Below are positions 19,859-37,789 of a stretch of DNA of 37,789 nucleotides, piece after piece. Each line of letters starts with the position of its first letter. Positions within the stretch are counted from its first letter, which is position 1. The translations under genes were made by a program, and so were the position numbers. The stretch is from positions 1 through 37,789 of the IMG/VR virus record IMGVR_UViG_3300023178_000118; one strand, written 5' to 3'. Under the pieces are notes generated by a model. That model ran no database searches. It had not been told where the DNA came from and saw nothing but the letters and a program-made list of their open reading frames with translations. The DNA comes from a virus.

Positions 19859-20044
19859 TTACTTTTTTCTCATCGCTTCTTTTTCAGCTTTATTTTTTTC
19901 TTCTAAAGCTTTATTAACTCTTTTTATCCACCACTGTCTAAAAGAAACGGGCATATTGTAAGCGTCTTGAAAACTAAGTTTTCCATAATATACACAAGCG
20001 AAAACTTCTTCCCAAAAATATTCTTTATGGCTTTCATTCAGGCC
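19859..20044 (-). CDS. Start-codon-less ORF, probable +1 frameshift extension of the gp26-family gene
   Basis: From 20044 to the TAA at 19861-19859 a 61-codon frame encodes a protein beginning GLNESHKEYFWEEVFACV and continuing YYGKLSFQDAYNMPVSFRQW, then a basic helix ending in EAMRKK. It is in the +1 frame relative to the overlapping gp26-family gene, which stops at 20034. Upstream in this frame a TAG lies about 18 bases before the slip site, and no ATG, GTG or TTG occurs before an internal ATG at NMP, by which point the Trp/aromatic part of the protein is already past. Amphipathic composition, conserved-looking 'MPVsfRqw' and lack of a start argue for translation by ribosomal frameshifting from gp26. 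A sequencing indel in TTTT would give the same picture, so this must be excluded. Confidence 0.68.
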   Translation of the reverse strand, partial: GLNESHKEYFWEEVFACVYYGKLSFQDAYNMPVSFRQWWIKRVNKALEEKNKAEKEAMRKK

Positions 20045-20885
20045 AAAAGAAACCCACCCCTATTGGGATGTCCACCTCCTCCTTATGGCCGCAATAACTA
20101 CAAGTGAAGGGTTGTTTCATAATTACATCAGGTTCATTATCGTTTAGATATTTTCTAAAAGCTCTAGAATCTCTTATAGACATACTTTTTACAAAATTAC
20201 TTATTGTTTCTGGCGAATCATCACCGTTGACAGATAATATTTGCTTTGAATATCTAGTTGTTATGTTTCTTTCCAAAGGTGACCCTGTTTTTTGTTTCGT
20301 CACTCTAAGCACTTCCTGTATTTCGTTTTCTTCCATTGAGGTTAGGAATCTAAACTTTATATTTATGCCGCTTGGAAGTGCAAAATCAAATGCAGGATTA
20401 TTTACATCTTCTGGATTCAAATCTAATGTTCTTACAGCTAACCCACTCAAATCAAAAGTATAATTATTTTCTTCTTCACAACTTGGACAATCTAATCTAA
20501 CTTCATAATCTGGGCCATAACCACTTATTCTAAGAAAAGTCATTATTGAATTTTTATCACCAGAAACCAAGTCATCTACGCTTATACTTTTATCAACAAT
20601 ACAACTTTGTAGTAGGTGGTCAAGTGCCTTACCAGACCTTAGAAGGGATCTTGATGTTAGTATGTCTTCGTCTGCAGCAGTAAGATGTCTTACTTCAATA
20701 AATTCTTCTTTGTGCAATGGATGGGTTTCCCCGTAAAGTTTACCCATGCTTGGTAAAAGCACCATATCTCTTGGTACAGAGTAACCGGATCTTTGTTCAT
20801 CTTTATTAGCCACCTCTTGTCGAGGAATAGGGGGAGATGCACCTTCTGCTGTATCTTCCTCTACTTTAATTTTTGATTTAGCCAT
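20034..20885 (-). CDS. 26: gp26-family baseplate hub / tail assembly protein
   Basis: 283 residues. The segment MVLLPSMGKLYGET, then EEFIEVRHLTAADEDILTS, then LLRSGKALDHLLQSCI is the hallmark of the T4 gp26 baseplate protein family (Pfam T4_baseplate). Two Cys pairs (C133/C136 in CPSC and C262/C265 in CSYC) form a likely zinc ribbon. It sits upstream of the tape measure, where long-tailed phages keep their tail assembly chaperones, and its last codons overlap a frame (to 19859) that would add 61 residues after a +1 shift at residue 280. The start has AAGGAG 7 bases upstream. T4 gp26 is a hub-assembly protein; a chaperone role for this family member is inference from position and the overlap. 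Confidence 0.83.
   Translation of the reverse strand: MAKSKIKVEEDTAEGASPPIPRQEVANKDEQRSGYSVPRDMVLLPSMGKLYGETHPLHKEEFIEVRHLTAADEDILTSRSLLRSGKALDHLLQSCIVDKSISVDDLVSGDKNSIMTFLRISGYGPDYEVRLDCPSCEEENNYTFDLSGLAVRTLDLNPEDVNNPAFDFALPSGINIKFRFLTSMEENEIQEVLRVTKQKTGSPLERNITTRYSKQILSVNGDDSPETISNFVKSMSIRDSRAFRKYLNDNEPDVIMKQPFTCSYCGHKEEVDIPIGVGFFWPE
20042..20051 (-). other. Candidate +1 ribosomal slip site
   Basis: On the minus strand the gp26-family frame reads TTC TTT TGG shortly before its TGA. A Phe-tRNA on TTT can move one base forward and pair perfectly with the next TTT, after which translation continues GGC CTG AAT into the 61-codon extension. An alternative +1 position is GGG-G about 12 bases upstream. 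The TGA four codons past the slip codon limits the window for shifting. Confidence 0.5.
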
Positions 20886-21008: not shown

Positions 21009-21506
21009 TTAGTATCTCAGAATACACTCATCTGGTCTAACAGTAATGGATATCTCTACAGGATCAGCACCATCGTAAGAAAGATCACCAAAAGTAGCTT
21101 CAGAAATAAAAGCTCCTCTGATGTCCCACTTTTCTACTGATGCGCCGACGGGATCAAGCATTTCGATTGAGAAATTCTTCTTGTAAAAAGAAGCATATCC
21201 ATCACGACCAGAAATTGTTTCGTGAGAAAGTCTAACCCATTCCATAACACGTTGAGCTGATGAAGGAGCGATAGGATCGTGCAATGTCATTGCGATTGTA
21301 CCCCATTCACCCTTACCGGCCAAATATCTCTTGCTGTTGATATAATCAATAGTAACTGGTTCCATTGTAAAAGATGGTCTTGCAACAGTTTTGAGAGTAT
21401 AAGCAGGGATTTCTTCATCTTGAAAGAAAAGAATCCAACGATTATTTCTTTTTGGCTCAAATGTATCTGGTAACAGCCTTCCTTGATTTAGTGTTGTTAC
21501 TGCCAA
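21009..21506 (-). CDS. 19: Tail tube protein, gp19 family
   Basis: 165 residues, the typical gp19 size. The segments NRWILFFQDEEIPAYTLKTV, then GEWGTIAMTLHDPIAPSSAQ and MEWVRLSHETISGRDGYASF, then EKWDIRGAFISEATFGDLSY are those of T4-like tube proteins. Hexameric rings of this protein stack around the tape measure to form the inner tube. The start is an unusual TTG at 21506 (protein MAVTTLNQGR), preceded by GGAG 7 bases upstream; no ATG exists near the N-terminus, the first internal Met being at residue 47. It has its own terminator downstream and is separated from the sheath gene by another terminator, so it is probably made as a single-gene transcript, consistent with high copy number. Confidence 0.93.
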   Translation of the reverse strand: MAVTTLNQGRLLPDTFEPKRNNRWILFFQDEEIPAYTLKTVARPSFTMEPVTIDYINSKRYLAGKGEWGTIAMTLHDPIAPSSAQRVMEWVRLSHETISGRDGYASFYKKNFSIEMLDPVGASVEKWDIRGAFISEATFGDLSYDGADPVEISITVRPDECILRY

Positions 21507-21589: not shown

Positions 21590-24454
21590 CTAAACTTCAT
21601 CAAATGATGCACCACTACCGTCAACATTAAAGTCAAAGATAATAATTTCAGCGGCCTGTGTAGGCTGTAGGAAAATCTTACCTTTGATAATGTTTCTGTC
21701 AACTAGATCGGGTGTTGTTGTTGATTCGTCTAGTATAGCTCTAAACTGTGTCAAACCATTTTGAGCCTGTACTGTGCTCAAATATTCGTTTACTCTTGCT
21801 AGAATTGCACCTTGTGTAGATTCGTTGTTAGCTTCAAAGACAAACAATCTTGAGAAACCAGCGATTGTCTTTCTTACTTCTACTAGCATTCTTCTAACAT
21901 TGACTCTATCAAGCACTGACTGCTTCTTCTGCAGTGTCTTCTGACCGAAGATAACAATACCTTGGCCTGGGAATGTAGCTATTGGGTTTACGTTTACTGT
22001 ATAGAGACTATCTCTTTGAGATTGATTTAGTCTACGTCTTGCTTCCAAAACAGTATCCAATCCACCTCTTGTAAATCCTGCTGGTGCAAACCAAGGTTGG
22101 GCAACGCTGTCGTTGAATGCGTAAGCACCAAGCACTTCTACACTTGGTGGTACCCACATTAGACGATTGTTTTCAGCGTCATTAATTCTAACCCAAGGGT
22201 AATAAGCAGCAGCATAATTTGTGTCATACTTAGCTGACTCTGAAATAGCGTTAGATACACTTAGTGCCAACCCAGCGCCGCTTGTTGATGTGTCACCCAA
22301 ATCAATAATAGCGAAAGCATCGGAACGTGCTGTAATCATGTCAACAAGCTTATCGTTTGTTGTGCCAGCTTCACCGGAGTGCACACCAGGCACTGCGATA
22401 AGATTGAAATCAACTTCTTCTGGATTAGAGAGAATGTTGATAGCTGTTGAGAAGTCAGCGCTGATGCTGCCGTCATTATATGAATTAGCCATATCTTTTC
22501 TTGGGTCGAAACCATCAGTACCACCATACATAGCTACTGTAAAACGAATCTGATTTGTTGTCGAAAAGTTTCCAGCGTTGACACCTGTTGTGTCAATCAA
22601 AGTGTATGATGATGGGACATTAGTAATTTCATCAGCAGCAGTACCATAAACAATACCTGCCTGCTGTGCAAAAGTACCGTTGCTTGTGTTTACTACAGAG
22701 TTCTTAAGTCTATCAGCCATACCAGCGTCAAGAGAAACACCTGCATATGTTGTAGATGAAACCTCTCCTCTTGCGTTTAGGTGGTTTGTCTTAAGACTTA
22801 CAGGAGCGTATGTGCAAAATCCTGTAGCGAAATCAGAATCAAAGTTGTTACCTGTGATAACAGATGTGAATGTACCACCTGCTTGTGTCAACACTGACTC
22901 TTCCACTGTGATTTCAGTAGTTGTTGCGCTAACGACAGTGAAATCACCATCGTTGCCTGGGAAAGTTACAACTGTTGTGTCTGCGATTGTAACATTGCCA
23001 CTTAGGTTTACAGTTGTTACAAATCCATCATCACTGAAACTGTCAACAGTAACACCTAATGATTCACCAGATACTTGCACATCACTACCAACAACAATAT
23101 CAATCACTGTACCAATTATGATTGTGGATGCGGTCGTAAAATCAGCGTTAACAGCACCTGAAGATGTAGTACCAGCAACTGTAATTGTAGCACCAGCATC
23201 TAAAAATCCCCATTCAGTGTGAGGTGTAGGATCTGTTATTGTGCCAGTGTTTGAATAAGCAATAGCTGTATCTGTTACAGAAAATTCAATTGTTGTTCCC
23301 AAAGCGTCCCTGTTTGTTGGGTTGACATTAGCTGTAGGATATCCCTTAAAACCAGCAGGGTGTGCATTTGTTGGTGCACCTTCCACAACTTCAACTCTAA
23401 CAAACTTTGATTTGTTTTCAAAATCACCATCATACATAACTTCAACAGGAGATGTGTTAAAGTTATAAACGGGATAACGATCACCAATAGCTCTGCCGAC
23501 ATACTTAGCAGAAGATGGATCCATAGTAACGTCTTCATATGATTCCAAAACTTGTGGTTGGTCATCTGTATCACCTGCTGCACGAATAGCAATGCTAAAT
23601 GTGGGGAATTCTGTAGCAGAATCAGATTTGTTAACGTTTGTTACTGAAACTTTTACAGAAGCAGGTGAGTGTGTCATTTGATGAAACTTAAACATTTCAA
23701 ATACTTGACCATCAAAGTTCTGTGAAACAACAGAGGGTGTCTGAGGCTCAAACAATCCAGCAACGGTATCAAACTGAGTTGTACCTACTGTGTTTCCAGA
23801 TTGAGCTGTAACACTAACCCAATTTGGTACACCGTTGGTGTTTTCAGATGCGTTATCTACTGTGCCAGCGTAGTCACCAACAGCGTAGTCGAATACAGCA
23901 TCAGTGTAAAGGTCGCTAAAAAGCTCACCATCTGTGTGCTTCTTGGGGTTGCTACCGATTACTTTCTTAATATACTTGGGGCTTGAGGGACTAAGTGAAA
24001 GACCAGTGGCGATTTCACCATTAGCGCTCAGCGCAAAGTTTGTTGGGCTGCCAGATACAAGAATGTCAGAGGCATCGTTGCTTCTTCTTCTAACAATACC
24101 GAGAACGGCGTTGCCATTTACCAAAGAAGCTGTTGTTGTAGCTGACTCTGGGAAAGCAAGCACGCCTGCTTGACCAACACCAGTGGCGCTACGACCAGCT
24201 AGCTTTACAAATGTCAAGCTATCTGCGCTTCTAAGATAATTTCTTGCGGCATATCCAGCATAATGTTCGGGATTTAGTCCACCAAATACTTCCTTAAACT
24301 GACCAAAACCTGTGACAGTAATAGGTCTGTAAGCTGGACCTTTTGATGACAACCCGATTAGAGCAGCACCAACGCCAGCTTCGGCAGCAGATGGAATAAA
24401 TGATTCGTCTATTTCCTGTGTATACACACCAGGAGATACGAAAACACTTGCCAT
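21590..24454 (-). CDS. 18: Tail sheath protein, gp18 family, with inserted beta domain
   Basis: 954 residues against 659 for T4 gp18. The N-terminus (FVSPGVYTQEIDESFIPSAA, then GAALIGLSSKGPAYRPITV, then YAGYAARNYL) and C-terminal core (YAAAYYPWVRI, VPPSVEVLGAYAF, FAPAGFTRGGL, INPIATFPG-like VNPIATFPGQGIVIFGQKT, RVNVRRMLVEVRKTI) are classic sheath segments, the latter forming the contractile core that interlocks between rings. The extra length lies in the middle; residues about 395-540 are a Thr/Val/Ser-rich beta segment with two repeats of an Ig-like feel, likely displayed on the outer surface. GGAG lies 7 bases before the ATG. It has its own upstream region and terminator, consistent with high-level expression. 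Confidence 0.94.
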   Translation of the reverse strand: MASVFVSPGVYTQEIDESFIPSAAEAGVGAALIGLSSKGPAYRPITVTGFGQFKEVFGGLNPEHYAGYAARNYLRSADSLTFVKLAGRSATGVGQAGVLAFPESATTTASLVNGNAVLGIVRRRSNDASDILVSGSPTNFALSANGEIATGLSLSPSSPKYIKKVIGSNPKKHTDGELFSDLYTDAVFDYAVGDYAGTVDNASENTNGVPNWVSVTAQSGNTVGTTQFDTVAGLFEPQTPSVVSQNFDGQVFEMFKFHQMTHSPASVKVSVTNVNKSDSATEFPTFSIAIRAAGDTDDQPQVLESYEDVTMDPSSAKYVGRAIGDRYPVYNFNTSPVEVMYDGDFENKSKFVRVEVVEGAPTNAHPAGFKGYPTANVNPTNRDALGTTIEFSVTDTAIAYSNTGTITDPTPHTEWGFLDAGATITVAGTTSSGAVNADFTTASTIIIGTVIDIVVGSDVQVSGESLGVTVDSFSDDGFVTTVNLSGNVTIADTTVVTFPGNDGDFTVVSATTTEITVEESVLTQAGGTFTSVITGNNFDSDFATGFCTYAPVSLKTNHLNARGEVSSTTYAGVSLDAGMADRLKNSVVNTSNGTFAQQAGIVYGTAADEITNVPSSYTLIDTTGVNAGNFSTTNQIRFTVAMYGGTDGFDPRKDMANSYNDGSISADFSTAINILSNPEEVDFNLIAVPGVHSGEAGTTNDKLVDMITARSDAFAIIDLGDTSTSGAGLALSVSNAISESAKYDTNYAAAYYPWVRINDAENNRLMWVPPSVEVLGAYAFNDSVAQPWFAPAGFTRGGLDTVLEARRRLNQSQRDSLYTVNVNPIATFPGQGIVIFGQKTLQKKQSVLDRVNVRRMLVEVRKTIAGFSRLFVFEANNESTQGAILARVNEYLSTVQAQNGLTQFRAILDESTTTPDLVDRNIIKGKIFLQPTQAAEIIIFDFNVDGSGASFDEV

Positions 24455-25110: not shown

Positions 25111-25890
25111 TTACCTACCTTTCTTTATTTTATTTTCTAACAACAAACAATATAGTAGTATGTTGTCGTCTTCAAATTTTGAATGACCTTGTGTGTAATA
25201 TTTTATAGATGTTTGGTAATCGCCCATTATATCATAAGCTTTACCTAACATATAATAGCTTTCTATATCTTCTGGGTTATTTTCTAATCTTTTTATACAC
25301 AGCCTAATATATTCTTCATCAACAGCTAAATGTTGCCAACTATGTATCAAAATATTAGAATCAATACGTTTTAAACCCTCTCTATCTATAGTATAATAAA
25401 GATTTTCGCCTATGTTATACTTGTATCTTATTCTTTTATCGTTTCTGAATAATCTAATACACTTTTTTTGTATACATCTAGAATACCCTCTATAGAAGCT
25501 GGCATCGATTGTGGCAGGGTCTGTATTTTCTTGGGAAGTATATAGGTTTATTTCCGTTTCAAAGCCATAGGTGTCATTGGCGTTGCCATAGAGTATTCCA
25601 TTTGATATGCGTTGAATACTATTTGCATCTATTTCGTCGTTGACATTCATTTTGAATATCCACTTACCACTACAACAATCTAAACCTTTGTTATAAGCAG
25701 AAGAATAATCATCTTCCAAGTCTGTTTTCACTATAACTATTTTTTCGTTATAGTCTTTATATATAAATTTTTTTCTATTACCCGTTATAACCACAACAGC
25801 TTCATCAATGATGCTTTCAAAATCATTTATAATAGAATAAACTTTTTCGTATTCATCTTTGCATACTATCAGTAGTGATAAATCTTTCAT
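25111..25890 (-). CDS. GT2-type glycosyltransferase-like protein with TPR tail and altered DxD
   Basis: 259 residues. The start LSLLIVCKDEYEKVYSIIND, then DDYSSAYNKGLDCCSGKWIF is the GT-A fold pattern of family 2 enzymes (compare 'SSARNxGLxxAxGxW'). These normally continue into LDADDE; here residues 81-86 read MNVNDE, so both metal-binding Asp positions are Asn. C-terminal residues 195-255 (LENNPEDIESYYMLGKAYDI, then GDYQTSIKYYTQG) are a TPR pair, as in bacterial GT2-TPR proteins. It may transfer sugar to a phage or host protein, or be an inactive sugar-nucleotide-binding relative. A structured RNA with an intrinsic terminator lies immediately before its CAGG ribosome site, suggesting regulated expression. 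Confidence 0.75.
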   Translation of the reverse strand: MKDLSLLIVCKDEYEKVYSIINDFESIIDEAVVVITGNRKKFIYKDYNEKIVIVKTDLEDDYSSAYNKGLDCCSGKWIFKMNVNDEIDANSIQRISNGILYGNANDTYGFETEINLYTSQENTDPATIDASFYRGYSRCIQKKCIRLFRNDKRIRYKYNIGENLYYTIDREGLKRIDSNILIHSWQHLAVDEEYIRLCIKRLENNPEDIESYYMLGKAYDIMGDYQTSIKYYTQGHSKFEDDNILLYCLLLENKIKKGR

Positions 25891-26073: not shown

Positions 26074-26514
26074 CTAATTTTCTTCTTTTAGTGCTTCTCT
26101 AAAAACTGCTTTGGCTTCTTTTTCAGCTTCCTTTAATTTTTCTTCACTTGCTTTTCTTTGCGCCTTCGCTTTCTCTTCGTTGGCTATAACTATTTTAGTT
26201 ATTTCGTCAAGCTCATCTTGTGTTAAAGGCTCTAGACCATTCTTTAATGTTATTTTGTGAATAACGCCAAAAATTATTTGCATTTCGTTTTCATTTATAT
26301 GTGTATGAAATTCTTCTATTGAGGCGTTATATATGTCTTTAAAAACAAATTCCATGTTGGCTCTTAATTGTTTACCATTTATTTGCTTTGAAACCTCTGT
26401 AGAAATTAATTTTTCTTGCATTGTATAGTGTATTGCTTCGTGAGCTATGTATATAATAAAAACAGAAAATGTTATATTACCAATTATTTGTAAAAACTTT
26501 TCAAAATTATTCAT
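26074..26514 (-). CDS. Small membrane-anchored protein of unknown function
   Basis: 146 residues. One hydrophobic helix near the N-terminus (IIGNITFSVFIIYIAHEAI, about residues 10-28) is followed by a soluble domain and a strongly charged Lys/Glu/Ala helix at the C-terminus (residues 110-146). An N-in signal anchor with a cytoplasmic or periplasmic coiled coil is the simplest reading. Topology resembles small phage inner-membrane proteins such as holin/spanin or exclusion proteins, but no family is recognised. HEAIH within the helix superficially fits HExxH but is not credible as a protease site. A terminator lies upstream and a promoter directly downstream, so the gene stands alone; its own promoter was not identified. 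Confidence 0.7.
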   Translation of the reverse strand: MNNFEKFLQIIGNITFSVFIIYIAHEAIHYTMQEKLISTEVSKQINGKQLRANMEFVFKDIYNASIEEFHTHINENEMQIIFGVIHKITLKNGLEPLTQDELDEITKIVIANEEKAKAQRKASEEKLKEAEKEAKAVFREALKEEN

Positions 26515-26528
26515 AAATACCTTCCTAT

Positions 26529-26573
26529 AAAAAATGGTCTTGTCATATTATATTATAATACAACAAGACCATT
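26529..26573 (-). terminator. Intrinsic terminator after the secreted repeat-protein cluster
   Basis: An 11-base stem (AATGGTCTTGT with ACAAGACCATT) encloses a 19-base AT-rich loop and is followed on the minus strand by six Ts. It follows the stop of the 836-residue gene by 27 bases and closes the cluster of secreted proteins. Confidence 0.85.
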
Positions 26574-26600: not shown

Positions 26601-29111
26601 CTACGGGCAATGCCATGTCTCGCTTTGCCCATCACCATTAGAGTTTATAGTTATAAACTTACTAGCTCCGATGGGATTGCCAGGGGGAGAAGATACGTAA
26701 GTTGTTGGGCCAGAAGTGGTGAATCCAGTTGCTGGACAAGAAATATCACACTTAAACCTAGCAGTCGATTGACTACCCGCGTCGGGTGTTATTGTTACTT
26801 CTTGACCATTAGACAAGCCAACGGATGTCTGACCACTAATAGAGCCAACACTGGTGCTGTATCCAAAATCACATTTATTCACCCTAACATCACTTGTTAA
26901 ATATCCTCCTGAACTAACAAGAAGGTCTGATCCAGATGTACCTTCTGAAGCGGAAAATGTGCCGCCTGATCTGTCAGGCATAGAGCCTGTTCGTGCTGTA
27001 AAAGCAGAGCCATTAGAAGTGCCATAATACTGCTGCCCACTTCTAACATTTTCCTCGCCTGTATCTCTAGCTCCACTTATACCAGAGTGGCTTTCCGTGT
27101 TAACAGAATTACAACTTACACTTTGATATGGTCCCGAATTCGCAGTTTGTCCGTGGTTAATTGTTGCTGTCTTAGAAACTCTATTGATTTTCACATCTCC
27201 TGATAAGTATCTGTCACCTGTTGCAACAACATAATCTCCTGATCCTGAAACAGGAGTATTGGTTGATCCTGATTGTGTTGAAAGAGAGCCGCTGCGTCTT
27301 TGCCCACTTGAAGTCCAATACTCATAACCACTCCGTACCTGAGCATCATCAGCGTCTGTGGTGCCAGTGCCTGCATCTACAACATCAACACTAATACTGC
27401 TATAGTAACCTGCAGCATACCCTCCATCAGAAGTAAAGCTACCGGCCCCGTTGTTAGCCATTGTGCCATCCACTACACTACCGTTTGTGTCCCATGCCTC
27501 ATACCCACTAAGAATTTGAGCACCGGCAGCGTCAGTATCCGCTGTGCCTGCATCTATAACACTTACTGTGCCGCCACTATAATAACCAGCGTCCAACGAA
27601 ACATCATCAGTGTTGAATGTAGGTGCACCTCTGTTTGGCATTGTGCCGTCAATTAAAGATCCTGTCGAACCCCAAGCTTCATACCCTGCAAGAATTTGCG
27701 CTCCACCAGCATCTGTGTCAGCTGTACCTGAAGCCACAACATCAACTGATATACTACTATAATAGCCTGCAGGTTTGCTGCCATCAGAAGTAAAACTTCC
27801 AGCGCCATTATCAGGCATTGTACCATCAACTAAATCACCAAGCTCACTCCATGCCTCATAACCACTAAGAATTTGTCCTCCGCCAGCATTTGTATCACCG
27901 GTGCCTGGGTGAATTACATCAACTGTTATACCACTATAATAACCAGTATTTTTTACACCGTCAGTATCAAAAGTCACAGACCCTCTGTTTGGCATTGTAC
28001 CATCAACTAAATCACCAAGCTCACTCCATGCCTCATAACCTGTGAGTATTTGAGCACCTGAGGCGTTTACATCACCAGTACCTGGGTGAATTACATCAAC
28101 TGTTATGCCACTATAATAGCCAGCGCTTTTCGTACCATCAGTGTCAAAGTTTACTGAGCCTCTGTTAGGCATCGTTCCATCAACTAAACCACCAGTAGAA
28201 TTCCATGCCTCATAACCACTAAGAATTTGCGCTCCACCAGCATCTGTGTCAGCTGTACCTGAAGCCACAACATTAACTGTAATGCCGCTATAGTATCCTG
28301 CAGCATACCCTCCATCAGCAGTGAAACTTCCGGCTCCGTTATTGGGCATAGAGCCTGTTACAAGTGTTCCGTCAGATTGAAAGCCTTCGTTAGATACTAA
28401 TAATGTAGCTGCTGTAACATCTGGTGTAGCTGTGTTTCCATTCAATCTATTTCCAGAGCTTGGATAAGTTCCTGTATTACCAGCAATACCAACACCAATC
28501 CTTACATTAGTTGCAGATAGGTTTGTTGGGTTGTTGATGGTCAAATCTTTATCTACATAATCATTATTAGTTTGCAATGTGAATGGAAAATTAGCTGGTG
28601 TATATGAACCACTTGATATGCTACCACCATTAGACAAAGCACCTCCATATGTTGGAATAGTTCCGGTGGTTTCTGTCATGCCAGCACCTGTATAAAAAGT
28701 GAAGCCACTCATTACATTAGATGCTGCTGCTGTTCCTGCTGTAAAAGCAACAGCTTCGTTGGCATCTATTGCTGATGTAAGACCATCTAAGTCAGCGTCA
28801 TAAGCTACTAAACCCCAACTAGAGCCATTACAAAAATACAATCTATTGTTAACAGTGCTCATCATTAGATTACCTTGTCTAGATGCTTCACAAGTAGGCA
28901 ATCCCCCTTCTGGCACATCTAACAAAGCTGTAACTTGTATGGTGTCAGTATTTGCTTTTGAAGCATCTAACCTTTGACCCAAAGCAATTTTATATACAGC
29001 AAACTTATTAGCCAATCTCATTGTGTCTTCGACAGCTTGTGTTCCTCCAATCTGAGCAAAGGCATTGGTATATAAAAATAAAACAAAAATTAAGTTAATG
29101 ATTTTAGCCAT
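26601..29111 (-). CDS. Secreted fibre-like repeat protein A
   Basis: 836 residues. A signal peptide (MAKIINLIFVLFLYTNAFA, cleavage before Q20) precedes a head domain shared with two neighbours (AVEDTMRLANKFAVYKI, then LPTCEASRQG and NNRLYFCNGSSWG). A linker (residues 110-250, with TFYTGAGMTETTGT) leads to six repeats of about 59 residues (253-607; GTMPNRG, GYYSGITVDV, QILSGYEAW). The C-terminal part includes a module also found in the 810-residue paralogue (GSLSTQSGSTNTPVSGSG, RYLSGDVKINRVS, INHGQT) and ends Cys-rich. The repeats resemble the 'GTMPNNGA...GYYSG...GVxIFG' units of phage tail fibres and adhesins. A signal peptide is not expected on a virion protein assembled in the cytoplasm. 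AAGGA lies 8 bases before the ATG, inside the end of the previous gene (22-base overlap), so translation is coupled. Confidence 0.8.
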   Translation of the reverse strand: MAKIINLIFVLFLYTNAFAQIGGTQAVEDTMRLANKFAVYKIALGQRLDASKANTDTIQVTALLDVPEGGLPTCEASRQGNLMMSTVNNRLYFCNGSSWGLVAYDADLDGLTSAIDANEAVAFTAGTAAASNVMSGFTFYTGAGMTETTGTIPTYGGALSNGGSISSGSYTPANFPFTLQTNNDYVDKDLTINNPTNLSATNVRIGVGIAGNTGTYPSSGNRLNGNTATPDVTAATLLVSNEGFQSDGTLVTGSMPNNGAGSFTADGGYAAGYYSGITVNVVASGTADTDAGGAQILSGYEAWNSTGGLVDGTMPNRGSVNFDTDGTKSAGYYSGITVDVIHPGTGDVNASGAQILTGYEAWSELGDLVDGTMPNRGSVTFDTDGVKNTGYYSGITVDVIHPGTGDTNAGGGQILSGYEAWSELGDLVDGTMPDNGAGSFTSDGSKPAGYYSSISVDVVASGTADTDAGGAQILAGYEAWGSTGSLIDGTMPNRGAPTFNTDDVSLDAGYYSGGTVSVIDAGTADTDAAGAQILSGYEAWDTNGSVVDGTMANNGAGSFTSDGGYAAGYYSSISVDVVDAGTGTTDADDAQVRSGYEYWTSSGQRRSGSLSTQSGSTNTPVSGSGDYVVATGDRYLSGDVKINRVSKTATINHGQTANSGPYQSVSCNSVNTESHSGISGARDTGEENVRSGQQYYGTSNGSAFTARTGSMPDRSGGTFSASEGTSGSDLLVSSGGYLTSDVRVNKCDFGYSTSVGSISGQTSVGLSNGQEVTITPDAGSQSTARFKCDISCPATGFTTSGPTTYVSSPPGNPIGASKFITINSNGDGQSETWHCP
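27291..28355 (-). repeat. Six tandem 59-codon fibre-like repeats (protein A)
   Basis: Six in-frame units of 177 bases (one of 180) encode GTMPxxG, xFxxDGxxxxGYYSxIxVxV, GTxDxxxxxQILSGYEAW and a short LVD ending. Two inner units share long identical DNA runs (for example around TCACCAAGCTCACTCCATGC), implying recent duplication or gene conversion. Confidence 0.9.
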
Positions 29112-29476
29112 CTTGTTATCCTTTCTGTTAGGCCCATTGCATAATAATCCTGTAATTTAATTATGCTTGCTATGATATTCCAATTAGTGCCATCACAAAA
29201 ATACAATCTACTATTAGATGTGTTGACAGCTATATTTCCTTTTGTGCTTGTGTTACACGTTGGTAAAACTATCTCAGGCACTTTTAATTCTTTTTCTACA
29301 ATAAGACTATCTAAAATTATTGTGGAAGCATCTAATCTCTGCCCCTTATCTATTTTGTATACAGAAAATTTATCAGCTAATCTCATTGTGTCATCAACAG
29401 CTTGAGCGCCTCCTATTTGAGCAAATAGAGGTTGTGTCATAAATAATAATAAAACTACTAACAATAAATTTTTCAT
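29090..29476 (-). CDS. Secreted head-domain-only paralogue
   Basis: 128 residues. The signal peptide (MKNLLLVVLLLFMTQPLFA, cleavage before Q20) and head domain (QIGGAQAVDDTMRLADKFSV, then GQRLDAS, LPTCNTSTKG, NSRLYFCDGTNWN) match the first 100 residues of the two long paralogues. After that the protein ends with a short unrelated tail (LQDYYAMGLTERITRWLKSL) whose last codons contain the Shine-Dalgarno and ATG of the next gene. It is either a deliberate short version, for example a subunit or decoy, or a remnant left when recombination removed its repeats. Intact signal, Shine-Dalgarno (AAGGA) and overlap with the next gene favour function. Confidence 0.75.
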   Translation of the reverse strand: MKNLLLVVLLLFMTQPLFAQIGGAQAVDDTMRLADKFSVYKIDKGQRLDASTIILDSLIVEKELKVPEIVLPTCNTSTKGNIAVNTSNSRLYFCDGTNWNIIASIIKLQDYYAMGLTERITRWLKSLT

Positions 29477-29493
29477 TTTTTAATCCTTGTGTT

Positions 29494-30024
29494 TTATTCT
29501 GAAGTTGTTGAAGTTGAATCAGGTTTTTGAAAGCGTGATTTTTGTGCAATATAATAATTCTTCCAAACATCATACACCGATGAAGCTTTTTTAGCAAATT
29601 GTGTGTTTTTATAATGAGTATCTTTTTCTACAGATATACTATTCATAATATTTTTTTGTTGTTCAATGGTTGGAAAATAATCCATAATAACTTCATCTTC
29701 TTCACTAAAAAACCTACCATTCCATATACCTATATAGCATCTGGTTTCATCCGACATTTCTGATTTGTCAAAAAAAACAAAATACAAGTTTAGTGTGTCG
29801 AAACTAGCGTAAGCGTTAGATAAAACTTGCAGGTTTTCAACTTTAATTTCAACATCAGTCAAATTTTGTTCTATTGTATTATCTACAGCAACATCTCTTT
29901 CGCCCCAGATACTATAAATTAAATTATTTTGAGTGTCTTTTAAATTCAATAAATTGTATTTTTCAGCATTAATATAATCCACATTAGCTATTAAAAAAAA
30001 CAAAACAATAAGCATAAATTTCAT
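29494..30024 (-). CDS. Secreted protein of unknown family
   Basis: 176 residues. An N-terminal signal peptide (MKFMLIVLFFLIANVDYINA, cleavage before E21) is followed by a globular domain with alternating strands (IYSIWGERDVAV, NLYFVFFDKSEM, RCYIGIWNGRFF) and a Lys/Ser/Thr-rich C-terminal tail. It shares no similarity that I can see with its fibre-like neighbours. AGGA lies 4 bases before the ATG. Sitting between two secreted paralogues, it probably belongs to the same exported set, perhaps as a partner or processing protein. No function can be named. Confidence 0.7.
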   Translation of the reverse strand: MKFMLIVLFFLIANVDYINAEKYNLLNLKDTQNNLIYSIWGERDVAVDNTIEQNLTDVEIKVENLQVLSNAYASFDTLNLYFVFFDKSEMSDETRCYIGIWNGRFFSEEDEVIMDYFPTIEQQKNIMNSISVEKDTHYKNTQFAKKASSVYDVWKNYYIAQKSRFQKPDSTSTTSE

Positions 30025-30041
30025 TTTATCCTACCTTTCTT

Positions 30042-32474
30042 TTAGCATCCACAAGTTACAGTTTCCAATATTGGCAGATTTCCGCTATGAGTAAAACATC
30101 TTCTACCACCCGCTGTTTCTGGACCAGTGGAAGCGTAATCAAAAACATTCGCCTGCGCATCCCCAGTGGTAGTCGATACCACTGTTGTAGTTCCGCATTT
30201 CTCATTACAAAAAAATCCCGGAGACAGCGGCAGATATGTTTCATTTCTTAACTTATAATTACTGCCGCAACCAGATGTAGTTGTAGAGTATTCGGTGTCC
30301 CCCTGCGAGCAGTGATATACGCTAGATGACGAGCCGTCATTAGCATTAATTGTTATCTGATTGCCTAACTCGATATTGGTACCGGAACTACCAGCGGTCG
30401 GACCAGTTACACTAAAACCGGTGCTGGCAGAATTGCACGTAACACTTTGATATGGTCCCGAAGACGCAGTTTGTCCGTGATTAATTGTTGCTGTCGCAGA
30501 AACTCTATTGATGGTTACATCGCCCGATAAATATCTGTTGCCTGTTGCAACAACATATGAACCGGACCCTGAAACAGGAGTATTGCTTGACCCAGCTTGA
30601 GTGGAAAGAGAGCCGCTGCGTCTTTGCCCACTTGAAGTCCAATATTCATAACCAGATCGCACTTTAGCATCATCTGCGTCTGTGGTGCCAGTGCCTGATT
30701 CTATCACATCAACAGTTATTCCGCTGTAATAACCAGCGCTTTTTACACCATCGCTATTAAAAGTTGCTGAGCCATTATCAGGCATCGTACCGTCTATCAA
30801 ACCACCAGTTGACCCCCAAGCTTCGTATCCACTAAGAATTTGAGCACCACCAGCATTGGCATCACCAGTGCCCGCTGCAACTACATCAACACTTATACTA
30901 CTATAATAACCTGCACTATAGCTCCCATCAGCAGTGAAACTTCCAGCTCCATTATTAGCCATTGTGCCATCAACTAAAGATCCAGACTCGTTCCAAGCCT
31001 CATATCCACTAAGAATTTGGCCGCTACTAGCATTCGTATCACCAGTACCTGCCGATATTACATCAACAGTTATGCCACTGTAATAACCAGCACTTTTTAC
31101 ACCATCACTATTGAAAGTTTGGGAGCCGTTGTTAGGCATCGTTCCATCAACTAATCCACCAGTAGAGTTCCATGCTTCGTATCCACTAAGAATTTGAGCG
31201 CTACCAGCATTTCCATCGGCAGTACCAGAAGCAACTACATCAACAGTTATGCCACTGTAATAACCAGCGCTTTTTACGCCATCGCTATTAAAAGTTTGAG
31301 AGCCGTTGTTGACCATTGTGCCGTCAACCAAAGATCCAGATTCGTTCCAAGCTTCATAACCACTAAGAATTTGACCACCACTAGCGTTTACATCACCAGT
31401 GCCTGTTGCAATTACATCGACAACTAGACTGCTGTAGTATCCTGAGTTTTTAGTTCCATCAGTATTAAAAGTTTGAGAGCCGTTATTAGGCATAGTTCCA
31501 TCTATCAAATTACCAGTAGACCCCCAAGCTTCATAACCACTAAGGATTTGTCCACCGGCAGCATCACCATCACCTGTGCCAGAAGCCACAACATCAACAG
31601 TTATTCCGCTATAGTAGCCAGCGTTTTTTACACCATCACTATTGAAAGTTTGGGAGCCATTATTAGGCATCGTTCCATCAACTAATCCGCCACTAGAATT
31701 CCACGCTTCATATCCGCTAAGGATTTGTCCACCGGCAGCATCACCATCACCTGTACCTGATGCAACTACATCAACAGTTATTCCGCTGTAATAACCAGTG
31801 TTTTGCACTCCATCACTATTAAAAGTTACAGAGCCTCTGTTCGGCATCGTTCCATCTATCAAACCGCCAGTTGACCCCCAAGCTTCGTATCCACTAAGAA
31901 TTTGGCCGCTTGCAGCATCAGTGTCACCTGTACCAGAAGCAACTACATCAACTGTAATACTGCTGTAGTATCCAGCGTTTTTTACACCATCACTATTGAA
32001 AGTTTGAGCACCGTTGTTGGGCATTGTTCCAGTAGTTTCTGTCATGTTTGGACCAGCATAAAAAGTTTTTGCTGTTAATACATTTGGAGCAGTTGCGGTT
32101 CCTGCAGCAAAAGCTGATGCATCATTTGCATCTATCGCTGATGTAAGACCATCTAAATCACCATCATAAGCTACTAAACCATAACTAGATCCATTACAGA
32201 AATATAGTCGGTTATCTGTAGACTTCATAACTATTACACCCTTTATTAGTGAGCTACAAGTAGGTAATGTCTCTGTTATTGGCACTTTTAATATATAGTT
32301 TATGTAAGAAGTATCTGCGTTTACATTAGAAGAAACAAATCGTTGCCCATCTGAAATTTTATAGGCATGAAACTTATTTTCCAATCGCATGGTGTCTTCA
32401 ACAGCTTTTACTCCACCAAACTGTGCAAAACATTGTGTAGCTAATAACAACAATACACTAAATAAAATTTTCAT
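30042..32474 (-). CDS. Secreted fibre-like repeat protein B
   Basis: 810 residues. A signal peptide (MKILFSVLLLLATQCFA, cleavage before Q18) precedes the shared head (FGGVKAVEDTMRLENKF, LPTCSSLIKG, DNRLYFCNGSSYG) and TFYAGPNMTETT linker. Eight tandem 59-residue repeats span residues 149-620 (GTMPNNGSQTFNSDG, GYYSGITVDVVASGTGD, QILSGYEAW). The C-terminal module matches protein A to INHGQTASSGPYQSV, then a unique Cys-rich end (at least eight Cys, with CNEKCG and CGC) suits disulfide formation outside the cytoplasm. A perfect AGGAGG lies 9 bases before the ATG, so this first gene of the cluster should be well translated. As for protein A, fibre-like repeats with export signals suggest surface display or secretion from the infected cell; binding target unknown. 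Confidence 0.8.
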   Translation of the reverse strand: MKILFSVLLLLATQCFAQFGGVKAVEDTMRLENKFHAYKISDGQRFVSSNVNADTSYINYILKVPITETLPTCSSLIKGVIVMKSTDNRLYFCNGSSYGLVAYDGDLDGLTSAIDANDASAFAAGTATAPNVLTAKTFYAGPNMTETTGTMPNNGAQTFNSDGVKNAGYYSSITVDVVASGTGDTDAASGQILSGYEAWGSTGGLIDGTMPNRGSVTFNSDGVQNTGYYSGITVDVVASGTGDGDAAGGQILSGYEAWNSSGGLVDGTMPNNGSQTFNSDGVKNAGYYSGITVDVVASGTGDGDAAGGQILSGYEAWGSTGNLIDGTMPNNGSQTFNTDGTKNSGYYSSLVVDVIATGTGDVNASGGQILSGYEAWNESGSLVDGTMVNNGSQTFNSDGVKSAGYYSGITVDVVASGTADGNAGSAQILSGYEAWNSTGGLVDGTMPNNGSQTFNSDGVKSAGYYSGITVDVISAGTGDTNASSGQILSGYEAWNESGSLVDGTMANNGAGSFTADGSYSAGYYSSISVDVVAAGTGDANAGGAQILSGYEAWGSTGGLIDGTMPDNGSATFNSDGVKSAGYYSGITVDVIESGTGTTDADDAKVRSGYEYWTSSGQRRSGSLSTQAGSSNTPVSGSGSYVVATGNRYLSGDVTINRVSATATINHGQTASSGPYQSVTCNSASTGFSVTGPTAGSSGTNIELGNQITINANDGSSSSVYHCSQGDTEYSTTTSGCGSNYKLRNETYLPLSPGFFCNEKCGTTTVVSTTTGDAQANVFDYASTGPETAGGRRCFTHSGNLPILETVTCGC
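30615..32030 (-). repeat. Eight tandem 59-codon fibre-like repeats (protein B)
   Basis: Eight units of exactly 177 bases encode GTMPNNG-xF-NSDG-GYYSGITVDV-GTGD-QILSGYEAW-LVD. Units 2, 3 and 5, 6 are most alike at the DNA level. The eighth switches at its end to KVRSGYEYWTSSGQRRS, the same ending used by the last repeat of protein A. Confidence 0.92.
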
Positions 32475-32507: not shown

Positions 32508-33839
32508 TTATGATGTGGGGACATCCGCAATCATACCCAAAGGCACATAAAACTCTGCATTTGCTCTTGTAAATCCAGAAGTTTCTTCTGACATTTTTCC
32601 TAACAACCACCAACTATTATCACTAGCTTGCCACCACCCCAATGACCAATATGTGCCAGCAACTACTTCAACAAGCATAGGTGAAGCTATCGTCATTGAT
32701 GTTCTAAATTGACCTTCCACATTTACTGTTCCATCTACATCTAATTTGTATGATGGCTGGTCCGTTCCAATGCCGACGTCGCCCGTCGTTGTTACCGAAA
32801 CAAGAGAGTTTGCAGTTAAAAAGCCGCCTATACCTCCATAACCAATAGCATAATTTGTGTTTCCTTGAGGTATCCCTACTTGAAAGGCGTTTGTCGCACT
32901 GGTATAGGCATCCTCGTGCTCTATGTATATACCTGCCCCACTGCTCGCTGTAAATGTGCTTTTTAACTTGATGCTAACGTCATCATTGCTCTGAAATTTT
33001 GCTAAGCCTTCACCGGGTCCAGATTTTGTTACTTCAAAGTTACCATCGCTCGTGATGCGAGCAAGTTCGACAACGCTTCCACCCGCCGCTTGATACGCGA
33101 CACTCCACGCATCACCTGTGGCATCAGTTGGGCCGAGCCGTTGATACCACGAAGACAACCCTGTATTTGCTTGTGTTCCCTGTTCGGTTGCGTTAGACCC
33201 AATGACTAAACCATTGTAATTTGTGCTGACACCCGCATTGGTGGCGATAAACGATTTTTGTGTACTGCTGTCTTGATATTTAAATATTAAATGCGTGTTT
33301 CCAGATGTGTTGATGTCAACAGGGGCCGTTGGCAAGTCCGTTCCAATGCCGACATTACCAGCATTAGTTATTCTCATTTTTTCATCGTTGTCAGTAAGGA
33401 AACGTATAAAGTTTGTTCCATTACCATTACCGGCGTGTATTTCAAAATCGTGGTTTGTTATAGTTCCTATTCTACCATTATCCGCACCACTACTTGGAGT
33501 TTGTATTTCTACCGTTCTTCCTTGAGAATCTTCTAATCTTAACTTAGCAATGCCAAAGTTATCACTAGACGTTGCTTTTGCATGAATAAGAGTTGCTGGC
33601 TGGTCCGTGCCTATGCCAACCAATCCTGATCCAACGGCAAGGTTACCGTTATTTAAATTTAAATTTTTACCAACTGCGATATCGCCATCCGCTTTTATAA
33701 GCGTTACTCCAGCACCAGCATCGTCAGTGCTATTATATGACAGCACATTTTCAAGTAAATTTTGTGGATTTGGATTTACAACAGAAAAGGGTAATGCCCC
33801 TCTTAACAATCTTCCAAATTCTTTTGTTGCTGATTTCAT
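32508..33839 (-). CDS. Tail fibre protein with VGIGT repeats
   Basis: 443 residues, no signal peptide. The N-terminus (MKSATKEFGRLLRGALPF, then NLLENVLSYNSTDDAGAGV) would be the attachment end. Repeats of NVGIGTDLP or GIGTDQP after EKMRITNAG mark the trimeric beta-helical shaft typical of marine phage fibres. The C-terminus (SWWLLGKMSEETSGFTRANA, then FYVPLGMIADVPTS) would be the distal tip. The 'chaperone of endosialidase' domain often found at such ends is absent. GC content rises sharply in the middle (about 60% in 33061-33120), suggesting exchange of receptor-binding parts. An AAGAGA ribosome site lies 6 bases before the ATG. Confidence 0.82.
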   Translation of the reverse strand: MKSATKEFGRLLRGALPFSVVNPNPQNLLENVLSYNSTDDAGAGVTLIKADGDIAVGKNLNLNNGNLAVGSGLVGIGTDQPATLIHAKATSSDNFGIAKLRLEDSQGRTVEIQTPSSGADNGRIGTITNHDFEIHAGNGNGTNFIRFLTDNDEKMRITNAGNVGIGTDLPTAPVDINTSGNTHLIFKYQDSSTQKSFIATNAGVSTNYNGLVIGSNATEQGTQANTGLSSWYQRLGPTDATGDAWSVAYQAAGGSVVELARITSDGNFEVTKSGPGEGLAKFQSNDDVSIKLKSTFTASSGAGIYIEHEDAYTSATNAFQVGIPQGNTNYAIGYGGIGGFLTANSLVSVTTTGDVGIGTDQPSYKLDVDGTVNVEGQFRTSMTIASPMLVEVVAGTYWSLGWWQASDNSWWLLGKMSEETSGFTRANAEFYVPLGMIADVPTS

Positions 33840-33970: not shown

Positions 33971-34225
33971 TTATTCTGCTTGATGTGATGAGACATGAGC
34001 AGCATACGCATCTTTGATTTCTTGTGTCCATACTGCGCTTGCAATTGCTTGCACCTCTGCGCTTTCGCCAGATACGTCTGCGTCTGGCGTGAGTACCTTG
34101 CGTTCAAATGCGCGAGTCAGTTCCACACCATCGCGCTCTACTACAGTAGCTGTGCGAACTTGTATGTGTTTATACTGTCCAACGATTTCGATTTTATCTT
34201 CTTCTATGCGTTCTGTTAGTGCCAT
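33971..34225 (-). CDS. Small fibre-associated protein of marine phage type
   Basis: 84 residues (MALTERIEEDKIEIVGQY, then VRTATVVERDGVEL, then AIASAVWTQEIKDAYAAHVS). Short proteins beginning ALTERIEEDKIEI and including a TATVVxRDGVEL strand and a VWTxEIKxAY helix commonly sit beside tail fibre genes in marine phages and prophages; role unknown, perhaps a fibre cap or assembly factor. GC content is about 57% in a sampled stretch, far above core genes, so it probably arrived with the neighbouring fibre tip. AAGGAGA lies 7 bases before the ATG, and it follows the large fibre gene by 12 bases. Confidence 0.78.
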   Translation of the reverse strand: MALTERIEEDKIEIVGQYKHIQVRTATVVERDGVELTRAFERKVLTPDADVSGESAEVQAIASAVWTQEIKDAYAAHVSSHQAE

Positions 34226-34237
34226 TTGCTAATCTCC

Positions 34238-37200
34238 TTATGCCATTTTGTATTTGAGGCTAAAAGTAATAGTCTCATCACCGCTAAACTGCGATGCCGC
34301 AACACCGTATGTCGTACCCGTCATTAGGTATATGTGGCAATAATTATTACCCTCGTATAGTACGATGCCGAAGTCTTGTGCGTTTGCAGTTGCGCCTGTA
34401 ATAAAACACGTGGATGCACCCATATAACGTTCACCAGAACCATTATCGCAGGTAAATGGCAGCGACATTACTACATGACCAGATGGCGACGAAACGCTCG
34501 AAATTCTGATTCTTCCGCTAACCGTCACATACCCACCCACTATCTGATAACCAACGGCATTGTAACTTGAGTCAACAGTTATAGACCCAGAATCTGGCGT
34601 TAGCGCTGCTATATGAGCGCCCTCTTCATAGTCGTCCAACGCATTAGCGTCGGCTGTATCACCATTAAAAGTAATACCGCCAGAAGTTCGGATACGTGCC
34701 TTTTCGCTACCGCCACCCAAAAATTTTATATCGTTCGTATTACTAGTAGCACCCCCGATATTGATATTGTTTGGCGAATAGAACCAAACTTCACCCGGGG
34801 CCGCTCCGTGAGCCGTATAAATTGACCCTAAACAAGAAATGTCTAACGTGCCACCTCCGCTTGTATTGTCTATCCCAAACGTAACGGCGGTACTATCATT
34901 TCCATCTAAATTAAGAATGCAGCGAGGCGCGCCCGTGCCTATGCCGACCCGACCTATGTGATTGATCCGCATCCGTAGGGCATCATCGCCTTCTGAAGCA
35001 CTGTTTCCTGTTGTATGAAAATCCAGCGAATACCGACCGTAGGGGTCCATAACCACAGAACGAATAGCCGCACCTACACCTGCACCGTTACCCGAAGTGT
35101 CGGCAGTATTAAAATACACAGCACCTAAATAGTCGTTTCCAGAAACCGTTCCATCTGGGGTATAACCGACTTCAAATTGATAATTACTATCCAGATTTAT
35201 TGCCGCTCCTACGCGGCCAGCTCCCGCACTCGATATTGTTTGCGTTGGGCCATCGAATACAGCATCACCAACTACAGAGAGAGCCTTTGATGGCAAGTCC
35301 GTGCCTATGCCGACGTTGCCCGTATAGTCAAACGTGACAGCATCAATATTAACAGTGCCGTCTGCCGTATTATCTATACCGAATCGCAAATTGCTTGCAA
35401 CATTACTAATTGCCCACGCTGCACCTCCACCTTGACGACCTATCTGAATACCGCCTGCGGTACTTGTCGAATCTTGTTCGACGTACAGCATGGCATTTTT
35501 TGTGTCAGTTATATTTATCCCAACATGACCTGCGTTAGTTATTCTCATTGATTCAGCAGTTGTTCCACCATTTCTTGTGTCAAATCTAAGATAACCATTG
35601 CTACCATCTACTCTTTTACCATATATTGCAGCGTGTGCTGCAGCTTCAGACCAATTATTAGTTGTAGTGTGAAAAAATATTCCGTGACCACCATCAACAT
35701 CTGTAGAGCTATGCGCTAAAAGAATATTACCACCCTTAAGTGTTAGTAATGACGGAGGAGAAGTTACACCTATACCAACATGACCACCTGTTGTTACAGC
35801 AAATTTTGCTTCTGATGTATTATTATCGTTTGTTGTATTCAAAGACCATGTGTTGAAGTGATCGCTACCACCTCTACGCAATATACCTTGATACCAGATT
35901 ATACTTCCTTTTGTCCCTAATCTTATCGCTGCTGAGCGCACAGGCTGTGCAGTTGTTTCATATTGCTTTATTGTAAGAAATGCTCCGCCATCGCTGTGTG
36001 TGTTTTCAAAATAAGCAATATCACTATCGGAGCTGTATTCATCAGCAACATGAAGTCTGGCTAATGGTGTAGTGTTACCACCTATACTAACGTCACCATC
36101 ACCAGTTATTCTCATATATTCTGTTCGCGCTGGCCCAACTGCAAAATTTAAAAACCCCTTTTCTGAACCGGCAGTGCAAACTTCTATACCACCACCTATG
36201 AAACCATATTCTATATCATTAGTTACATCTGCGCTGTTTCCGTGACTAAAACGAACACCTATAGAAGAATTAACTGCATTGTCTTGTCTTTTTAAATCTA
36301 ATATGCCGAAATTACCTCCATTTGTAGATGGAGTTATAATAGTTGCGACAGTAGCATTTCCCTCACCCAAAACTGATAATTGACGGGGTGGTTCCACCAT
36401 ATTAATGCCAACAAAACCAGCACTAGTTATTCTCATTCTTTCATCTGATGTTTGTAACGCGGTTCCATCTAATGCATATCTTGTAAAAAATGATAAACCA
36501 GCTGCGTACCCTCCAGCATCCTCAGCAGTAGCCATAATAGATGCTCTAGCTCGACCTGAAACTCCTGTTTGATTAAAAACAATACCTACTCTGTCTTCAA
36601 GAGTAGTGGCAATTGAGCTTAAATGCAGTGCGCCATACGCGGGTTCATTTCCTCTTCTATCTTCTTTTACTGTTAAACGATGATCAATGGGGTTTGTTTC
36701 ACCTATACCAACATTGCCAGCACTAGTTATTCTCATTTTTTCGGTCATCGTGCCAACAGATGAGGTTTGAAACAATAGCGCTCCGCTGTTATATACAGAA
36801 TCCGTTTCAGTGTCTATTTGACTGAGTGTCACATCACCGTTTCTATTTCTGGCTTCTAATCTTGCAACAAAGGCCGATACACCGTTTGGTTGATAACCCT
36901 CAATCTTGAGTGCGTTACCCGTAGCTGATCCTGCTGTGGTACGGATATACACGTTTGCGCTGCCATCAGACACTACGTCAAGTTTGTGATTAGTGTCTGG
37001 ATTATTAGTACCAATGCCGACAGTACCAGAACCAGTAATTTTCATTGCTGTTCTGGAACCATCTGATCCTACTTGATTAAATGACAATGATGTTTGGTTG
37101 CTAGCAATAGGAACATTACTACGATGAACGCTTATATTATTCCAACCAAGTGTCATAAATTGTGCTGTATCGTCAGAACCGCGATTAAGCCGCATACGAT

Positions 37201-37789
37201 CATCAACAGTTGTTCCACCATCTAAATCAAGTGCATACAATGGATTATCAGTTCCGATGCCGACATAACCAGCATTATTTATTCTCATTCTTTCACGCCA
37301 ATCAGCGTTGCCACCACCAGCTCTTGTTTTAAAAGATAAATCACCATTATAAGCAGATTTATAAATATTGTTGATAGACCATTCAGCTTGATTACTACTT
37401 CCTGTAACAAGGCTAATACTAGAAAAATCCTCCGCAGTTTCATTATTGTTTCTAGCAACAATTTGTGCTCTTATTCTTTGGTCATTATTAGGTGCAAAAT
37501 TTACAGTTTCATCTTTTCTAACATCAAGACGAACTGCCGGAGAATCTACTCCTATACCAACATTACCATCACTAGATATTCTCATTCTTTCAGTTTGAGC
37601 AGCACCTGTTTGGAAGGCTAAGCCGTCACCCCCATTGATGCCTGCGATACTAGCTCTAATAGTTGTTGCATCAGACCTAAACTGAAGTGCAGCGCCTGAA
37701 GATTTTTCTAATATGAGAGAGTTTCCAGCAGTTGATTTTATATGCAGCCCGCCAGTCATTGATGTAGAAGGCGAATCAGTCCCTATACC
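34238..37789 (-). CDS. Very long tail fibre protein, 5' end beyond window
   Basis: The frame is open through the right edge (first visible residues GIGTDSPSTS), so the ATG at 37759 is not the true start; 1183 residues are visible. About a dozen units of 'ERMRITSAGNVGIGT..P...L.V' alternate with beta-rich segments, the shaft architecture of marine T4-like fibres. The C-terminal 140 residues begin ALDDYEEGAHIAALTPDSGS and resemble the widespread LDDYEEGTWTP fibre tip, with VGGYVTVSGRIRIS strands; no intramolecular chaperone is present. DNA from about 34.24 to 35.5 kb is much richer in GC than the remainder, so the distal third looks imported. This is probably the main long tail fibre and host-range determinant. 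Confidence 0.87.
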   Translation of the reverse strand, partial: GIGTDSPSTSMTGGLHIKSTAGNSLILEKSSGAALQFRSDATTIRASIAGINGGDGLAFQTGAAQTERMRISSDGNVGIGVDSPAVRLDVRKDETVNFAPNNDQRIRAQIVARNNNETAEDFSSISLVTGSSNQAEWSINNIYKSAYNGDLSFKTRAGGGNADWRERMRINNAGYVGIGTDNPLYALDLDGGTTVDDRMRLNRGSDDTAQFMTLGWNNISVHRSNVPIASNQTSLSFNQVGSDGSRTAMKITGSGTVGIGTNNPDTNHKLDVVSDGSANVYIRTTAGSATGNALKIEGYQPNGVSAFVARLEARNRNGDVTLSQIDTETDSVYNSGALLFQTSSVGTMTEKMRITSAGNVGIGETNPIDHRLTVKEDRRGNEPAYGALHLSSIATTLEDRVGIVFNQTGVSGRARASIMATAEDAGGYAAGLSFFTRYALDGTALQTSDERMRITSAGFVGINMVEPPRQLSVLGEGNATVATIITPSTNGGNFGILDLKRQDNAVNSSIGVRFSHGNSADVTNDIEYGFIGGGIEVCTAGSEKGFLNFAVGPARTEYMRITGDGDVSIGGNTTPLARLHVADEYSSDSDIAYFENTHSDGGAFLTIKQYETTAQPVRSAAIRLGTKGSIIWYQGILRRGGSDHFNTWSLNTTNDNNTSEAKFAVTTGGHVGIGVTSPPSLLTLKGGNILLAHSSTDVDGGHGIFFHTTTNNWSEAAAHAAIYGKRVDGSNGYLRFDTRNGGTTAESMRITNAGHVGINITDTKNAMLYVEQDSTSTAGGIQIGRQGGGAAWAISNVASNLRFGIDNTADGTVNIDAVTFDYTGNVGIGTDLPSKALSVVGDAVFDGPTQTISSAGAGRVGAAINLDSNYQFEVGYTPDGTVSGNDYLGAVYFNTADTSGNGAGVGAAIRSVVMDPYGRYSLDFHTTGNSASEGDDALRMRINHIGRVGIGTGAPRCILNLDGNDSTAVTFGIDNTSGGGTLDISCLGSIYTAHGAAPGEVWFYSPNNINIGGATSNTNDIKFLGGGSEKARIRTSGGITFNGDTADANALDDYEEGAHIAALTPDSGSITVDSSYNAVGYQIVGGYVTVSGRIRISSVSSPSGHVVMSLPFTCDNGSGERYMGASTCFITGATANAQDFGIVLYEGNNYCHIYLMTGTTYGVAASQFSGDETITFSLKYKMA

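Follow-up and report, generated by a model that had tools for sequence, protein, structure and literature searches.

Tail fibres of phages are regarded as parts that are made and assembled in the cytoplasm. Bdellovibrio exports phage-fibre-like proteins, the mosaic adhesive trimer (MAT) proteins, in which a conserved β-rich domain comes right after the signal peptide and the tips vary (PMC10769870). Phages of Porphyromonas gingivalis possess genes for products with Sec signals that follow the Q-rule (PMC10367356), i.e., the presence of Gln directly after the signal peptidase I site, which is typical of Bacteroidetes substrates (PMC5837995). PblB-type prophage tail adhesins are related to tail fibres, and a putative signal peptide has been reported for the pneumococcal form (PMC4508584). 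Trimeric autotransporter adhesins such as Eib and YadA possess a C-terminal β-barrel anchor. EibD and Lom are outer-membrane proteins, EibD being a trimeric autotransporter with a YadA-type anchor. Both are encoded by prophages and are listed as phage-encoded surface/adhesion proteins (PMC8065619). The exported fibre-like architecture itself is already known from MATs, in contrast to a first-pass annotation of the DNA studied here, whose author knew of no described system with it. Phage-encoded exported adhesins and Q-rule phage proteins have been described as well. A myovirus encoding exported fibre-like proteins inside its fibre cluster was not encountered in the literature searched.

The window analysed, i.e., the whole stretch of 37,789 nucleotides, contains the tail module of a contractile-tailed phage, including genes for baseplate wedges (Table 1). 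Four consecutive minus-strand genes, A to D (26601-32474), are situated between the tail fibre genes and the sheath gene in a late block. Judged by described architecture, the closest analogue of A and D is the MAT system (PMC10769870); in both cases a signal peptide, assigned in the block proteins by a crude filter and a conservation break, is followed by a conserved domain of about 130 residues, a fibre-like shaft and variable C-terminal tips, and several paralogues exist per genome. MATs are encoded by a predatory bacterium, whereas the block occurs in virus records only and no relative of its head domain exists in the GTDB genome collection. Many MATs end in an S74 domain, whereas A and D lack a Peptidase_S74 match at E<=1. 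As they lack this domain, are not encoded in a predator genome and have heads likened to those of MATs by description only, A-D are not filed as MAT members, although they might work like them.

The Q-rule proteins of P. gingivalis phages are phage-encoded, carry Sec signals and expose Gln after cleavage, as predicted for A, C and D; these phages are temperate, and the study in question describes no fibre architecture for their proteins, in contrast to A and D. PblB differs from the block proteins in belonging to temperate prophages of Gram-positive bacteria; in S. mitis it is part of the phage tail and is set free when the cell lyses. In comparison with trimeric autotransporters, A and D show no match to the YadA anchor and have Cys-rich tips instead. 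A late fibre cluster and repetitive shafts are features that A and D share with the ordinary fibres of T4-like myoviruses (PHROGs 18345 and 9942), which are devoid of signal peptides and contain few cysteines. Our preferred reading, to which we assign a probability of roughly 0.6, is that the block is an accessory late-gene module whose products would be Sec-exported, fibre-like binding proteins for the envelope of the infected cell.

Table 1. Features of the tail module and of the four-gene block A-D in the window.
Feature	Position	Strand	Length	Description and basis
Window	1-37,789		37,789 nt	Virus record IMGVR_UViG_3300023178_000118
Tape measure	14549-19432
Hub	20034-20885
Tube	21009-21506
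Sheath	21590-24454		954 aa
Glycosyltransferase-2/TPR gene	25111-25890	minus		Fibre-sheath slot
Terminator-like hairpin	26533-26573	minus		19-pair stem, then T run; directly after D, closes the four-gene block
Gene D	26601-29111	minus	836 aa	Signal peptide, head, spacer, 6 fibre repeats, Cys-containing tip
D C-terminal tip	26604-27290	minus		Residues 608-836; 5 Cys
D shaft	27291-28355	minus		Residues 253-607; 6 repeats of 59-60 residues; repeat analysis
D head	28662-29054	minus		Residues 20-150; alignment
D signal peptide	29055-29111	minus		Residues 1-19 (MAKIINLIFVLFLYTNAFA, then Q); filter and conservation break
Gene C	29090-29476	minus	128 aa	Signal peptide (29420-29476) and head alone, no shaft
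Gene B	29494-30024	minus	176 aa	Predicted to be exported (signal peptide at 29965-30024); no family match
Gene A	30042-32474	minus	810 aa	ORF; signal peptide, head, 8 fibre repeats, Cys-rich tip
A C-terminal tip	30045-30614	minus		Residues 621-810; 8 Cys
A shaft	30615-32030	minus		Residues 149-620; 8 repeats of 59 residues; repeat analysis; distant relatives are tail fibre modules
A head	32031-32423	minus		Residues 18-148; C73/C93 pair and NRLYFCNG; alignment, purifying selection
A signal peptide	32424-32474	minus		Residues 1-17 (MKILFSVLLLLATQCFA, then Q); filter and conservation break at the cleavage site
Ordinary tail fibre	32508-33839	minus		No signal peptide; GWWQA..SWWLL tip
Second tail fibre	34238-37759

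Signal peptides and export

Signal peptides were sought with a crude filter requiring a positive n-region, an uncharged h-region with a mean hydropathy of at least 2, and small residues at -3 and -1; as the filter may place the site a few residues off (TNA in D), exact cleavage sites were set by eye. Only A, B, C and D pass among the 73 window ORFs of at least 60 aa, in agreement with the earlier claim of Sec-type signal sequences on four adjacent genes. In all four, Lys occurs among residues 1-3 and is followed by a hydrophobic core and a small-x-small site, the signal peptide of B being the weakest, and cleavage is predicted before Q18 in A, E21 in B, Q20 in C and Q20 in D, positions that the first-pass annotation had also proposed. 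The predicted mature parts of A, C, D and a 1391-aa homologue from a related phage open with Q[FI]GG. Among these four proteins, leaders are 22-47% identical as compared to 53-81% in the first 32 mature residues, and such a jump in conservation at the cleavage site is the pattern expected of a cleaved leader. One might object that cleavage is predicted here by a crude filter and that the hydrophobic N-termini could be uncleaved membrane or virion anchors of fibres made in the cytoplasm. This is quite improbable given the classic n-h-c structure with small-x-small sites in all four proteins, the Gln that A, C, D and the 1391-aa homologue all have at +1, and the abrupt rise of conservation at this residue.

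When the same filter was applied to the 109-kb contig encoding the homologue, the homologue and six other ORFs passed among 176, four of the six being opposite-strand frames. When it was run on twenty more stretches from relatives, the filter let through nothing but the homologue, an exported protein of 200 aa and two short frames of doubtful status. By this filter, the block proteins depart from ordinary tail fibres, which are cytoplasmic and have no export signal. Export of A-D out of the cytoplasm of the infected cell is very likely, since signal sequences occur on four adjacent genes, are kept in a diverged relative and are absent from ordinary fibres of the same genomes, and since the cysteines are consistent with disulfides. 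Neither an outer-membrane anchor nor a lipobox or type IX secretion tail could be recognised in the block proteins, which counts against the preferred reading in so far as it would require passage across the outer membrane before lysis.

Gln occupies position +1 in A, C, D and the homologue, as in the Q-rule, whereas B has Glu; the four Gln-bearing proteins are homologous and do not represent independent cases. According to tail proteins, the best cultured relatives are a Microcystis phage and Flavobacterium phage immuto. In immuto, sheath, tube, hub and tape measure genes are arranged in the same order as in the window, and no exported fibre was found in the 99 kb examined. A host belonging to the Bacteroidota seems likely, as Gln at +1 fits the Q-rule and a Flavobacterium phage is among the cultured relatives.

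Head, shaft and tip

Alignment confirms that three of the four proteins have a head in common, C and D being 43 and 58% identical to A, respectively, with conserved QxGG, D-T-M-R-L and K-F motifs, a Cys pair and RLYFC[ND]G. B shows no homology to A, C or D and may serve another purpose. The 59-residue repeat noticed in the first-pass annotation was recovered with the same copy numbers, eight in A and six in D, at 59-60 aa per unit, and the Cys-containing ends were found as it had described them. The shaft units of A and D are tail-fibre repeat modules; their distant relatives occur in tail fibres of other contractile phages (L031, L032), where signal peptides are lacking, and in tail proteins of L033 and L125; A and D themselves do not match PHROG tail-fibre families. 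The proposal that the phage exports adhesin-like proteins is thus supported as to export, by signal sequences that are kept in the relative, while the adhesin-like part is a reasonable reading because the repeats are related to tail-fibre modules.

Residues 586-685 of A, which span the junction between shaft and tip, are 85% identical to D, and the sequences diverge beyond. A Cys-cap module is shared by the tips of A and D; a module common to all three tips was not supported for the pairs formed by A or D with the 1391-aa homologue. A contains 11 and D 7 cysteines as compared to 0 and 6 in two neighbouring ordinary fibres, numbers that are consistent with disulfides. In heads and repeats, pN is well below pS, with synonymous sites near saturation, and both parts are evidently under purifying selection. 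AlphaFold2 models of the head plus repeats, predicted as a monomer, and of the tip (mean pLDDT 35 and 30, respectively) were too poor to be used, and the Foldseek match of the former to the tail fibre of Rhodococcus phage Trina (E 8.6e-4, TM 0.12) was set aside. Pfam/NCBIfam matches to His-tRNA synthetase, HisZ and 6-phospho-β-glucosidase were weak and below curated cut-offs, and PDB sequence searches gave chance matches only.

An AGGAGG ribosome binding site is located in front of gene A, and the end of C overlaps the start of D by 22 bases. The end of gene C (29090-29140; ATGGGCCTAACAGAAAGG, MGLTERI...) resembles the start (34160-34225; ATGGCACTAACAGAACGC, MALTERI...) of a phrog_6228-type gene at 33971-34225, perhaps as a recombination remnant from the placing of D.

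Distribution among related phages

A tube-based scan yielded 80 loci of the lineage. L006/L017 are near-identical copies (99.96%), and so is L034 with respect to the 3' part of D. The sole diverged relative is the 109-kb contig G001, of which G002 is a 99.6-99.97% copy. Synteny between G001 and the window extends over sheath, tube, hub and wedges, with identities of about 34-64%. G001 encodes the 1391-aa homologue (L007, 6762-10937), which has a signal peptide, the head with an insertion of some 300 residues, and a shaft that leads to a Cys-containing end. The insertion, largely made of 21-residue repeats (SSPSADIENADINVLTNETSM), splits the head and separates its QFGG part from its Cys-pair part. 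The 1391-aa protein is preceded by an 87-aa homologue of the GWW tip, just as A is preceded by the ordinary fibre with this tip, and a 118-aa hydrophobic protein is encoded just downstream. The recurrence of the architecture in one diverged, syntenic phage indicates that it has been selected.

A head HMM run over 46 records of the lineage, many of which are fragments, matched only the window-like copy and G001/G002, so that the block was found in two phage types only, which gives the comparison little depth. L037 and L104, whose tubes are 96-98% identical, carry a different small gene at the place of D. The block is accessory, judging from both observations. B has a relative only in a near-identical contig, and no family was matched. 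Among INPHARED phages, neither A nor the repeat pair nor the head had a homologue with a useful E-value, and none was found on the plasmids searched. Three extra viral contigs suggested by a head DNA pattern were antisense chance matches, and the single further match of a CNG..W..DxDxDG pattern was also due to chance. Only two relatives of the repeat came from GTDB, one in a tail region of prophage type and the other in a mobile-element protein of Lachnospiraceae (L124, 4462-6675). The latter starts with a membrane segment, continues as a long coiled coil and carries its tail-fibre-type module close to an end rich in His and Cys, and it is another non-virion use of such a module.

The position of A-D within a late block, flanked by virion fibre genes and the sheath gene, as well as their shafts of tail-fibre type, would suit virion fibres that follow an unusual route, i.e., that are exported, matured by periplasmic disulfide formation and attached to particles when the cell lyses or afterwards. 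However, these phages already possess several ordinary signal-less fibres, which in G001 comprise 1104-1937 aa, and the block is absent from most relatives examined. For contractile-tailed phages, no case of assembly outside the cell is known. A virion role of this kind therefore seems rather unlikely, and the exported proteins are probably sent out instead of, or as well as, onto particles.

Possible role in the envelope

The fibre-sheath slot of relatives contains genes for glycosyltransferase 9 (GT9), glycosyltransferase 2 (GT2), a carbamoyltransferase and a PfkB-type kinase, a set that recurs upstream of the sheath in L046, L052, L061, L063 and L081 and suggests phage-driven changes of surface or virion glycans. 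As the window retains a GT2/TPR gene there, the slot seems to hold surface-sugar genes, which seems to fit an envelope-directed role of A-D through guilt by position.

According to the preferred reading, A-D would be made late in infection alongside the virion fibres, signal peptidase I of the Bacteroidota-type host would remove the leader and leave an N-terminal Gln, and folding and disulfide formation would take place in the periplasm. The head common to A, C and D might serve for anchoring or assembly, C, which lacks any other part, could act as a cap or competitor, and an envelope or surface target would be bound by the distal tips. Located in the envelope until lysis sets them free, the proteins would most likely keep receptors on the infected cell or its debris from capturing progeny or rival phages. 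On the basis of sequence comparisons, binding to the envelope or surface is a reasonably probable role for the block proteins, while receptor shielding in particular is a tentative proposal. Of the specific roles suggested in the first-pass annotation, namely coating of the cell, blocking of receptors, binding of virions and linking of cells, each would agree with these comparisons, and none is favoured by them over the others.

The small exported protein B and the protein encoded downstream at 26074-26514 resemble the make-up of a lysis region, and the relative encodes its 118-aa hydrophobic protein just downstream of the homologue. Therefore, A-D might be envelope factors for lysis or membrane work rather than adhesins, the shaft serving only as a spacer across the periplasm. 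In contrast, no convincing holin, spanin or endolysin family match was obtained, and long repeat shafts with variable tips are unlike known lysis proteins, which makes such a function very unlikely.

If the phage exports fibre-like binders, adsorption could be influenced outside the cytoplasm of the infected cell, for example by hiding receptors on debris or by excluding rivals; a path along which fibre modules are exchanged between phages and bacterial surface adhesins such as MAT proteins would also be indicated. One might speculate further, with little confidence, that the host Sec system allows a myovirus to construct an additional fibre set beyond the cytoplasm, which after export is anchored by the common head in the envelope or on particles, and that adsorption around the dying cell is controlled in this way. 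Such an exported fibre set would correspond, on the viral side, to the Bdellovibrio MAT system.

Further features of the tail module and its relatives

The sheath is longer than usual, and its similarity to known sheaths is mainly confined to the N-terminal and C-terminal parts, so that a large insertion is likely. The protein encoded at 26074-26514, just after the cassette slot, is small and has a hydrophobic segment at its N-terminus and a charged tail that resembles a coiled coil; variants of it are encoded in the close relatives L037 (164-604) and L104 (3-263 and 284-724, in tandem). In G001, two adjacent exported-looking proteins of 157 and 232 aa are encoded elsewhere (L024, 4465-5644), one of them with Ala-Gln at the likely cleavage site. 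The 200-aa protein of a more distant relative (L139, 5367-6008), possibly an exported enzyme, has a signal peptide that ends in Gly-Gln.
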